DNA of 64,000 nucleotides from Panacagrimonas perspica (GTDB taxonomy: Bacteria > Pseudomonadota > Gammaproteobacteria > Nevskiales > Nevskiaceae). The stretch covers positions 62,001-126,000 of the forward strand of contig NZ_SOBT01000009.1 in assembly GCF_004364935.1 (NCBI RefSeq), read 5' to 3'. Shown here piece by piece: positions 48,078-50,804 of this stretch; position 1 is the first letter of the stretch, and each line of letters starts with the position of its first letter. A program made the translations under genes and the position numbers. A model generated the notes under the pieces. The model did not search any database. It saw only the letters and a program-made list of their open reading frames with translations, and was not told the origin of the DNA.

Positions 48078-48153
48078 GTCTCTCGAAGCCGGGAGCAGGT
48101 CTTGCGTCGTCCGGCGCGTTGCAAACCTGCGCCCCCGGCACCATCTAACCGTC

Positions 48154-49368
48154 ATGGAAATCGTCCAGAAACTCGCGGTGCTGGCCGATGCCGCCAAGTA
48201 CGATGCCTCCTGCGCGTCCAGCGGCGGCCCGAAGCGCGATTCGCTCAAATCGGGCGGCATCGGGTCGACCGAAGGGATGGGCATCTGCCACGCCTACGCG
48301 CCGGACGGACGCTGCATCTCGCTGCTCAAGATCCTGCTGACGAACTTCTGCACGTACGACTGTGCGTATTGCATCAACCGTCGCAGCAGCAACGTGGCGC
48401 GTGCGCGCTTCAGCGTCGACGAGGTCGTGAAGCTCACGCTGGATTTCTACAAGCGCAACTACATCGAGGGGCTGTTCCTGAGTTCCGGGATCATCCGTTC
48501 GCCCGACTACACGATGGAGCAACTCGGCTTGGTCGCGCGCAAGCTGCGGCTGGATCATCGCTTCGGCGGCTACATCCATCTCAAGACGATTCCGGACGCG
48601 GCGCCCGAACTCATCACCGAGGCCGGGCGCTGGGCCGACCGGCTGTCGATCAACGTCGAGATGCCCACCGAGACGGGCCTGGCGTCGCTGGCGCCGGAGA
48701 AGAATCTGCGTGATATCCGCGCCGCGATGGGCAGCCTGCGGCTCAAGATCGACGAGACCCTGGAGGAGAAGCGCGCGCCGCGTTTCGCGCCGGCCGGACA
48801 GAGCACGCAGATGATCGTCGGAGCCGACGCGGCGAAGGATCGCGACGTGCTCGAGACCAGCGACAACCTCTATCGCAACTACCGGCTGCGCCGCGTCTAC
48901 TACTCGGCGTTCAGCCCAATCCCCGATGCGTCGCGCGTGCTGCCGCCGCTGGCGCCGCCGCTGATGCGCGAGCACCGGCTGTACCAGGCCGACTGGCTGC
49001 TGCGCTTCTACGGGTTCACCGTCGACGACATCGTGCCGCTGGATGCGCCGGATCTTCCGGCGGACATCGACCCGAAGACGGCCTGGGCGCTTCGTCATCG
49101 CGAGCAGTTCCCGGTCGACGTGAATCGTGCGGACCGCGAGACGCTGCTGCGCGTGCCGGGACTGGGCGTGCGCAACGTCGAGCGCCTGCTCGAGCTGCGC
49201 CTGGTGAAGACGCTGCGCTACGACGATCTCGTGAAGCTGCGCGTGCCGATGAAGCGCGTCGCGCCCTTCATCATCACGGCCGATCACCGCCCGCGCGCGG
49301 ATGCCGAGACCGCGAACCTGCGACGCACGCAGATCACGGCGACGCAGGGCGACCTGTTCGGCGCATGA
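48154..49368 (+). CDS. Putative DNA modification/repair radical SAM protein
   Basis: 404-residue radical-SAM protein of the type annotated as linked to uracil-DNA-glycosylase-like partners (TIGR03916-like). The cluster-binding cysteines are Cys66, Cys70 and Cys73 (NFCTYDCAYC, CX3CX2C). The N-terminus has LADAAKYDASCASSGG. The C-terminal region carries a helix-hairpin-helix (PVDVNRADRETLLRVPGLGV), a DNA-binding hallmark. The stop overlaps the start of the UdgX-fusion gene as ATGA, so they are translated together. The chemistry is not known from sequence. Confidence 0.92.
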   Translation: MEIVQKLAVLADAAKYDASCASSGGPKRDSLKSGGIGSTEGMGICHAYAPDGRCISLLKILLTNFCTYDCAYCINRRSSNVARARFSVDEVVKLTLDFYKRNYIEGLFLSSGIIRSPDYTMEQLGLVARKLRLDHRFGGYIHLKTIPDAAPELITEAGRWADRLSINVEMPTETGLASLAPEKNLRDIRAAMGSLRLKIDETLEEKRAPRFAPAGQSTQMIVGADAAKDRDVLETSDNLYRNYRLRRVYYSAFSPIPDASRVLPPLAPPLMREHRLYQADWLLRFYGFTVDDIVPLDAPDLPADIDPKTAWALRHREQFPVDVNRADRETLLRVPGLGVRNVERLLELRLVKTLRYDDLVKLRVPMKRVAPFIITADHRPRADAETANLRRTQITATQGDLFGA

Positions 49369-50804
49369 GGCAGGTCGACTTTCCTCCGGGCGCCGGCTTC
49401 GAGGCCTGGCGCGACGCGGCGCGTGCGCTGTTGCGGGATGCGGTGCCGCCCGAAGACGTGAGCTGGACCACCGGGCCGCAGGACGATCTGCTCGGAGCAA
49501 CGCCGATATCGGAGTCGACCGGCCAAGGCGCTGCGCAGGCGCGCGTACCACGCGAATTTCCGCCGCTGGCCCGCAGCGTGCTCGCGCACTCGGATCCGCA
49601 GAGCCCGGCGCTGATGTATCGCATCCTGTGGCGGCTCACGCACGGCGAGCCGCGGCTGCTGGAGCAGGTGACCGACGCCGACATCGTGCGCGCGCGTGCC
49701 TGCGAGAAATCCGTACACCGCGACGCGCACAAGATGAAGGCCTTCGTGCGCTTCCGCGAGATCGCAGCACACGACGGCGAGCCGGTTTTCGTCGCCTGGT
49801 TCGAGCCCGAGCACTACGTCGTCGAGCAGCTCGCACCGTTCTTCGCGGGCCGCTTCGCCGGCATGCGCTGGTCGATTCTGACGCCGTATCGCAGCGCCCA
49901 CTGGGACGGGCAGGAGTTGAGCCTGGGGCCAGGTGCGCTGCGCAGCGATGCGCCGCAGGACGACGTCCTCGAAGACCTGTGGCGGACCTACTACGCCAGC
50001 ATCTTCAATCCGGCGCGGCTCAAGGTGAAGGCCATGACCCAGGAGATGCCGCAGAAGTACTGGAAGAATCTCCCGGAGGCGCGATTGATCCCGGGCTTGG
50101 TTCGCGAGGCCGCGCAGCGTCGGGACGCGATGGTCGAGCAGGCGTTTGCCGCGCCGAACCGAAAGATCCGCGGTCATGTCGCGCCCGAGGCTCTGCCGGT
50201 GCCGACGGGCAGCCTCGATGAGCTGCGCCGCCTTGCGCACGACTGCCGTCGCTGCGATCTGTGGAAGCCCGCGACGCAGACCGTCTTCGGCGAAGGACCG
50301 GCGCACGCGCGCGTGATGGTCATCGGCGAGCAGCCTGGCGACCAGGAAGATCTCGCGGGCAAGCCCTTCATCGGCCCCGCCGGCAAGCTGCTCGACAGCG
50401 CGCTCGAACAGGCCGGGCTCGATCGCGCGGACTTGTACGTCACCAACACCGTGAAGCATTTCAAGTTCGAGCCGCGCGGCAAGACGCGCCTGCACAAGCG
50501 CGCCGATGCCTACGAGCAGCAGGCCTGCCGTCCCTGGCTGGACGCCGAGATCGAGCGCGTGAAGCCCGACGTGATCCTGTGCCTGGGCAGCATGGCGGCG
50601 TCGGCGATGCTGGGCAGCAGCTTCAAGTTGCTCAAGCAGCGCGGCACCTGGCACACGGGCGAAGACGGATCGCGCGTGATCGCCACGGTGCATCCGTCCT
50701 ACCTGTTGCGGCTGCCGGATGCCTCTGCGCGCGAGCAGGGCTTCGCGGATTTCGTCACCGACCTTCGGCAGGTTGCCGACGCACTGGCCAAAGGTCGGCC
50801 CTGA
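49365..50804 (+). CDS. UdgX-family uracil-DNA-binding protein fused to TIGR03915-like N-terminal domain
   Basis: 479 residues. Residues 1-275 form a domain of unknown role (ALMYRILWRLTHGEP, WSILTPYRSAHWDG, KYWKNLPEARLIPGL) found with the radical-SAM partner. Residues about 280-479 are a family-4-like uracil-DNA glycosylase fold: four Fe-S cysteines at 294, 297, 388 and 406, motif A GEQPGDQED (321-329), TNTVKHFKF, and motif B HPSYLL (443-448). The inserted loop has RGKTRLHKR with His377, the position that forms the covalent link to the abasic site in UdgX proteins, so covalent DNA capture is predicted. Confidence 0.93.
   Translation: MRQVDFPPGAGFEAWRDAARALLRDAVPPEDVSWTTGPQDDLLGATPISESTGQGAAQARVPREFPPLARSVLAHSDPQSPALMYRILWRLTHGEPRLLEQVTDADIVRARACEKSVHRDAHKMKAFVRFREIAAHDGEPVFVAWFEPEHYVVEQLAPFFAGRFAGMRWSILTPYRSAHWDGQELSLGPGALRSDAPQDDVLEDLWRTYYASIFNPARLKVKAMTQEMPQKYWKNLPEARLIPGLVREAAQRRDAMVEQAFAAPNRKIRGHVAPEALPVPTGSLDELRRLAHDCRRCDLWKPATQTVFGEGPAHARVMVIGEQPGDQEDLAGKPFIGPAGKLLDSALEQAGLDRADLYVTNTVKHFKFEPRGKTRLHKRADAYEQQACRPWLDAEIERVKPDVILCLGSMAASAMLGSSFKLLKQRGTWHTGEDGSRVIATVHPSYLLRLPDASAREQGFADFVTDLRQVADALAKGRP

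Follow-up and report, generated by a model that had tools for sequence, protein, structure and literature searches.

Links between radical S-adenosylmethionine (SAM) proteins and uracil-DNA glycosylases (UDGs) have been described before. In one passage of a 2013 note, DUF4130 is associated with SplB-like radical-SAM proteins and with UDGs (PMC3765255), and passages of a study of Bacteroidetes SOS networks place a COG1573-COG4277 operon within them, citing earlier reports for Verrucomicrobia and Alphaproteobacteria (PMC8565304). A CAC3343-CAC3344 operon is given as putatively LexA-controlled in part of another paper (PMC3828012), and such a radical-SAM gene figures among those upregulated in drying Acinetobacter in a section of a further one (PMC13130816). 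For UdgX, passages of PMC10359453 describe a covalent bond with the abasic site and propose that the protein protects such sites, with RecA-dependent or proteolytic resolution; they term its physiological role largely unknown as of 2023. The gene pair that we analyse here is already known, through named family models and an earlier putative SOS-linked repair operon, and our copy is a further member. It lies in a stretch of 64,000 nucleotides from Panacagrimonas perspica (contig NZ_SOBT01000009.1, positions 62,001 to 126,000), the whole of which we call the window, and the genome of this host measures 5.4 Mb.

The pair is laid out in the window as follows.

48154..49368, plus strand: radical-SAM gene, family TIGR03916 (NCBIfam name rSAM_link_UDG), ATG start, 404 residues, assigned by profile match.
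49365..50804, plus strand: fused DUF4130-UdgX gene, ATG start, 479 residues, assigned by profile matches and a predicted model.
49365..49368, plus strand: ATGA overlap, four bases common to both genes.
48078..48153, plus strand: intergenic stretch 5' of the pair, without a LexA box of the host type.

The preliminary description of this locus had read the two genes as overlapping by ATGA, which is exact to the base (49365-49368), and the second product as a fused TIGR03915-like/UdgX protein, for which both family models indeed score above their cut-offs. It had also read the first product as a radical-SAM protein with a helix-hairpin-helix. The radical-SAM part of this claim stands, with 561.2 bits to TIGR03916 against a cut-off of 343.5 (NCBIfam), 38.8 bits to Pfam Radical_SAM against 29.5, and a CX3CX2C motif, while the helix-hairpin-helix part is matched just weakly (Pfam HHH_5, 18.8 bits, under the cut-off of 27). 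The match scores of both proteins are too large for chance.

We propose that the two genes probably encode a pair of proteins that jointly process DNA lesions at the replication fork or behind it, and that this unit is recruited by the sliding clamp, is usually SOS-induced and has UdgX as an optional part. The clamp-type tail of the radical-SAM protein, the SOS control suggested across lineages and the putative DNA-binding parts favour a role in repair or tolerance where replication forks and gaps occur.

The composition of the pair was examined in 200 genomes of the phylum, where TIGR03916 exceeded its cut-off in 31 genomes and TIGR03915 in 31, the identical set. UdgX exceeded its cut-off in 29 of the 200, namely in 23 of the 31 pair carriers and in 6 genomes without the pair; 8 of the 31 carriers were without UdgX. 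The control genome of Caulobacter vibrioides has matches to all of TIGR03916, TIGR03915 and TIGR03914. We also compared 115 loci, made up of 35 (the window's own included) and the best 80 of 590. DUF4130 adjoins the radical-SAM gene on the same strand in 113 of these; in one of the other two (L105) the contig ends just past a recognisable DUF4130 start, and in the second (L110) a different gene occupies that place. UdgX was fused in 86 loci and encoded separately in 2; no UdgX was found in the other 27, an upper bound as some stretches are cut. On a quick tree of the radical-SAM protein (97 rows thinned by similarity plus the window, no mixture model, L024, L025, L105 and L110 omitted), UdgX presence or absence changes at least 15 times, and there was no UdgX match in the Bacteroides, Fusobacterium and Acinetobacter stretches. 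We take the NCBIfam text, likewise, to hold that just part of the family is fused to a UDG. The radical-SAM protein and DUF4130 are the constant core and UdgX is an optional module: because it is absent from part of the genomes and loci and changes state repeatedly on the tree, UdgX is an accessory, and the core must work without it.

No third operon member was found: once the pair's shadow frames are set aside, the most frequent neighbour families occur in at most 7 of 80 loci (neighbours not named by family). Within the window's own taxonomic family, the radical-SAM gene occurs in just 6 of 58 genomes, and the closest relative by pair gene, among the best 80 of 590, is a Panacagrimonas metagenome-assembled genome with 87% identity. 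In one genome (G128:C1:5486827-5487696), a DUF4130 fragment of 49 bits with one internal stop lies beside a UdgX gene, with no listed radical-SAM family match; this locus resembles the remains of a pair that decayed and of which UdgX survives alone.

The radical-SAM protein carries four features that bear on its function.

49345..49359, plus strand: beta-clamp-binding-type motif QGDLF, residues 398-402; Q398 is invariant in alignments of 24 and 57 rows.
48211..48315, plus strand: three extra cysteines, C20 (48211), C45 (48286) and C54 (48313), a candidate auxiliary iron-sulphur cluster site.
48349..48372, plus strand: CX3CX2C radical-SAM cluster motif, C66/C70/C73, in 131 of 131 aligned rows, with a Pfam match.
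49066..49257, plus strand: helix-hairpin-helix-like region, about residues 305-368, with weak profile matches and with helices in the predicted model.

Passages of PMC12309361 give the clamp-binding consensus as QL[S/D]LF, more generally QxxLF, and place QLSLF at the C-terminus of PolC. We scored a tail motif as Q-x-x-[L/M]-[F/L/W/I], or a hexapeptide form of the QLxLxF/L type, within the last 30 residues. This motif was present in 114 of the 115 radical-SAM loci, and the sole locus outside this count (L055) has RQADLF slightly farther from the end. When the tails were shuffled (1000 rounds), the motif appeared in a mean of 7.15 and a maximum of 15 of the 115. As a further control we used 340 neighbouring genes with homologues in more than one locus: none of these carried the motif in the last 12 residues and 4 did in the last 30, compared to 77 and 79, respectively, of the 80 radical-SAM genes in this comparison. 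Distant relatives have near-terminal forms such as QLLLDF (Bacteroides), QLSLGF (Acinetobacter), QLKLF (Fusobacterium) and QLSLW (Gemmatirosa), and a relative on a gut contig has the variant QLSFF near its end. In the predicted model of the window protein, residues 395-404, which span QGDLF, have a predicted local distance difference test score (pLDDT) below 50. These tails suggest that the radical-SAM enzyme docks on the DNA-replication ring.

We then examined 33 loci from Planctomycetota and Verrucomicrobiota, 12 of them above the family cut-off and the other 21 relatives with lower scores; L132, with 357.9 bits, is above the NCBIfam cut-off yet was placed with the 21 by its score to the window protein. 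Here the tail was found in 11 of 11 radical-SAM proteins that adjoin DUF4130 and in 0 of 21 without DUF4130 in the available stretch (the 21 relatives plus L148, the end of L135 not being visible). The extra cysteines C20, C45 and C54 are invariant in the alignments of 24 and 57 rows and kept in 130 of 131 rows of a wider set, with L124 as the exception. All 12 family members from Planctomycetota and Verrucomicrobiota carry the three cysteines, whereas the 21 lower-scoring relatives have C20 in 21/21, C45 in 0/21 and C54 in 0/21, so C45 and C54 are specific to the group paired with DUF4130. The conservation of the extra cysteines suggests that they may hold an auxiliary iron-sulphur cluster. 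The relatives with C20 but neither C45 nor C54 (L132-L135 and L153-L169) form a second, lower-scoring radical-SAM group, and one of them (L161) adjoins a UDG with a family-4-type VKCRPPGNR stretch.

Upstream of the pair, GTTC-N7-GTTC was found in 44 of 48 alphaproteobacterial loci (control windows, 26/960), and CTGT-N8-ACAG in 11 of 16 betaproteobacterial loci (4/320) and 2 of 11 gammaproteobacterial loci (0/220). We take these two patterns to be the LexA boxes of those lineages. Overall, an exact box belonging to one of three types precedes the gene in 88 of the 115 loci, compared to 38 of 2300 control windows. In a further 7 loci CTGT-N8-ACAG occurs when a single mismatch is allowed, a count that has no control. 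This pattern suggests that the radical-SAM gene is usually induced by DNA damage across lineages. In Stenotrophomonas, Xanthomonas and Pseudoxanthomonas copies (L044, L045 and L057) and in L026, a palindrome of the type GTCTCA-N5-TGAGAC lies upstream in place of a LexA box.

Several observations weigh against a clamp-recruited, SOS-induced unit with two iron-sulphur sites. No CTGT-N8-ACAG within one mismatch lies near the start of the window's own pair at 48154, although exact boxes of this type occur in the host near recA and in front of lexA; SOS control therefore cannot be claimed for the window copy. The close gammaproteobacterial relatives L006-L010, L026, L041, L042, L044, L045, L057 and L062 have no recognisable box either. 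Clamp binding by the tail is a prediction, and the window motif QGDLF carries a glycine at position 2. The association of tail, cysteines and DUF4130 also has exceptions: the Gemmatimonadota copy from Gemmatirosa (L124) ends near QLSLW yet has no extra cysteines and no detected DUF4130, and L148, which is above the family cut-off, has neither tail nor DUF4130 in the available stretch. C20 is common to relatives without DUF4130, and the model has low confidence around the extra cysteines (block means pLDDT 51-74). Finally, the loci are related to each other, so the counts are not independent.

No clear radical-SAM relative was found among solved chains by sequence profile, and the best profile matches to such chains are weak ones of the helix-hairpin-helix region to ComEA (E 0.013) and RuvA (E 0.046). 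By fold, the best of the solved matches listed for the predicted model are HydE (Z 16.8, root-mean-square deviation (rmsd) 2.3, 212 aligned) and, in effect tied with it, lipoyl synthase (Z 16.4, rmsd 3.2, 222 aligned), and biotin synthase is also among the 50 listed; the modelled barrel is thus generic. In PHROGs, the protein gave a weak radical-SAM match alone.

The constant partner of this protein occupies the first half of the second gene.

49398..50081, plus strand: DUF4130 / TIGR03915 domain, residues 12-239.
49479..49493, plus strand: loop of lower model confidence whose motif resembles xx[D/S/G]LF (QDDLL in this copy, residues 39-43), a possible second clamp site.

The domain scores 220.2 bits to TIGR03915 (SAM_7_link_chp) against a cut-off of 112.25 and 140.4 bits to Pfam DUF4130 against 27. 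In a Pfam search of 6 proteins to E 10, DUF4130 itself was the sole family, and no relative was found among solved chains by sequence profile. Residues R129, F130, P148, F160 and R163 are present in 120 of 120 rows and R218 in 115 of 120. Since these near-universal residues are arginines and aromatics, they suggest that DUF4130 more likely makes nucleic-acid contacts than carries out metal catalysis. The loop contains [x]L[F/W] in 56 of 65 rows, compared to 113 of 1300 windows taken from other parts of these proteins, and it may be a second, weaker putative clamp site; the window's own loop reads LL rather than L[F/W], and a leading Q occurs in just 6 of the 65 rows.

The second half of the gene encodes the optional module.

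50085..50774, plus strand: UdgX domain, TIGR03914, residues 241-470, 307.8 bits against a cut-off of 189.95.
50325..50339, plus strand: UdgX motif A, GEQPG, with E322 and Q323 kept in 86 of 87 fused rows, exception L019.
50481..50495, plus strand: UdgX R-loop, KTRLH, with nucleophile His377; H in 86 of 87 rows, exception L019.
50691..50711, plus strand: UdgX motif B, HPSYLLR; H443 is kept in 86 of 87 rows and R449 in 84, with a gap at the latter position in the remaining three.

With motifs defined as in PMC10359453, 86 of the 87 fused rows retain each of E322, Q323, R375, H377 and H443; the row that lacks them is in every case L019, which looks disrupted. The preliminary description had picked out a histidine for covalent capture of uracil sites, and indeed His377 of KTRLH is intact and aligns with the histidine of KRRIH in the solved Mycobacterium smegmatis UdgX. 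That protein is also the best solved match of the UdgX part of the model (6ajo_A, Z 32.0, rmsd 1.4, 197 aligned, 53% identity). By these residues, the domain is predicted to retain uracil excision and covalent capture. The second protein is also above the cut-off of TIGR00758 UDG_fam4 (142.3 bits against 125.3), as a related fold; we rejected assignment as a family-4 UDG on the basis that the window protein has GEQPG, not GE(A/G)PG, plus an R-loop. In PHROGs, the UDG part of the fused protein matched a DNA-polymerase family and one unknown family. Equivalents of C294, C297 and C388 presumably hold the iron-sulphur cluster of UdgX. Ten of the 87 fused rows (L032, L033, L036, L037, L050, L061, L082, L089, L094 and L098) lack all three, yet keep H365 and His377.

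The host genome contains four further UDG-superfamily matches above cut-off (L001, L003, L004 and L005), of which L001 is a separate family-4-type protein with GEGPG and VKCRPPGNR. With these four, the host can probably remove uracil without the fused gene.

We hypothesize the following sequence of events. After DNA damage, the radical-SAM protein would dock on the sliding clamp through QxxLF and thereby recruit its DUF4130 partner to gaps of single-stranded DNA or to forks that have stalled, where DUF4130 would help to bind the damaged strand and the radical-SAM centre would carry out radical repair chemistry on a nucleotide. UdgX, where present, would excise uracil and bond through His377 to C1' of the abasic site, which would then be shielded from breakage until its RecA-dependent or proteolytic resolution; abasic-site protection resolved through RecA or by proteolysis would fit a fork-associated role. 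A bolder version of this proposal is a clamp-delivered radical-SAM machine for fork repair or tolerance, with two iron-sulphur sites and SOS-induced in most of the lineages compared, in which a suicidal UdgX, borne by many of the DUF4130 partners, covalently parks the complex on abasic sites to let the radical centre act on adjacent damage. We offer this version tentatively, as a possibility whose chances are somewhat less than even.

Other functions could be envisaged for the pair. The preliminary description had seen a DNA-repair pair of unestablished function, which the conserved uracil excision and capture residues of the UdgX domain bear out, and it had placed uracil capture at the heart of the pair, which the distribution of UdgX contradicts. 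In such a uracil-centred system, UdgX would capture uracil sites and the radical-SAM protein would then process or release the UdgX-DNA bond. This could explain why UdgX is fused or separate in 86 and 2 of the 115 loci with its active-site residues kept in 86 of 87 fused rows, and it would make use of the covalent bond with the abasic site described in passages of PMC10359453. However, UdgX is missing from 8 of 31 pair genomes, undetected in up to 27 of 115 loci and without a match in the Bacteroides, Fusobacterium and Acinetobacter stretches, and its state changes at least 15 times on the tree; we reject uracil as the core substrate on these counts and regard the system as a whole as distinctly unlikely. 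Direct reversal of an ultraviolet (UV) or pyrimidine lesion in the manner of spore photoproduct lyase, with DUF4130 as a cofactor, would agree with the SOS linkage, which fits UV damage. Still, no spore-photoproduct-lyase family is among the NCBIfam matches to E 0.01, and SplB (COG1533) and COG4277 are listed as separate genes in the relevant passage of the SOS paper (PMC8565304). No spore photoproduct lyase stands among the 50 listed solved fold matches, which include HydE, lipoyl synthase and biotin synthase, but a list of this length excludes nothing. We consider direct reversal unlikely.

The core might instead modify bases rather than repair them, with the radical-SAM protein acting behind the fork and UdgX removing stray uracil. 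The family name, 'DNA modification/repair', permits this, and clamp binding would suit a post-replicative modification, but the LexA-type boxes in 88 of 115 loci favour a damage response and no third gene of any function recurs widely beside the pair, which together make base modification very unlikely. Least probable of all, and in our judgement highly improbable, is defence against phages with uracil-containing or deaminated DNA: the patchy distribution (6 of 58 family genomes) and the UdgX domain are what one might expect of such a system, yet PADLOC-DB returned 0 families for both proteins to E 0.01, there is no widely recurring third neighbour, and a search of 50,697 phage records gave just 10 matches, of which 8 are unannotated entries from human faecal samples under the name 'Bacteriophage sp.'. 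A lesion-processing unit at the fork remains the reading that we prefer.

The guessed function of a widespread pair becomes open to specific tests through its clamp-type tail, its extra cysteines and the LexA-type boxes, and, UdgX being optional, the core substrate is not uracil. If the proposal is true, it would place radical-SAM chemistry on the replication clamp and offer a setting for UdgX; radical chemistry tethered to the clamp would add a new mode to DNA repair. Neither the clamp motif nor the extra cysteines turned up in the open-access literature that we searched, which is not proof of absence, and no paper there joined a clamp-binding motif with radical SAM or a sliding clamp with a uracil-glycosylase. 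TIGR03914, TIGR03915, TIGR03916 or DUF4130 are named in 2 papers, and COG4277, among the 30 papers listed for a wide search, in PMC8565304 alone.

Among described systems, the window pair matches all three models of the NCBIfam trio TIGR03916/TIGR03915/TIGR03914, with the same pairing and UdgX fusion and no architectural difference; to this the present analysis adds the LexA-type boxes, the clamp-type tail and the additional cysteines. HMCES/YedK (SRAP) proteins covalently shield abasic sites, and their protein and bond chemistry are unrelated to those of UdgX. Such shielding is also a proposed role of UdgX; no SRAP family is among the NCBIfam or Pfam matches of the window proteins. COG4277 is, we presume, the same radical-SAM/helix-hairpin-helix family as the window gene. 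The putative COG1573-COG4277 SOS base-excision-repair operon is, like the window pair, a two-gene unit with a UDG-family gene; in passages of PMC8565304 that operon is LexA-controlled and treated as UDG-based repair, whereas here DUF4130 is constant, UdgX is optional and the window copy has no LexA box. Spore photoproduct lyase (SplB) is likewise a radical-SAM enzyme linked to DNA repair and SOS in parts of PMC3765255 and PMC8565304. The window protein has no sequence-family match to it and has extra N-terminal cysteines, a helix-hairpin-helix-like region, a clamp-type tail and a DUF4130 partner, some of which SplB may share. With the solved M. smegmatis UdgX (for example 6ail and 6ajo), the window domain shares GEQPG, the R-loop histidine and HPS..LLR; in contrast to that protein, it forms one polypeptide with DUF4130 and has a radical-SAM partner, and its R-loop region is two residues shorter, with KTRLH in place of KRRIH.

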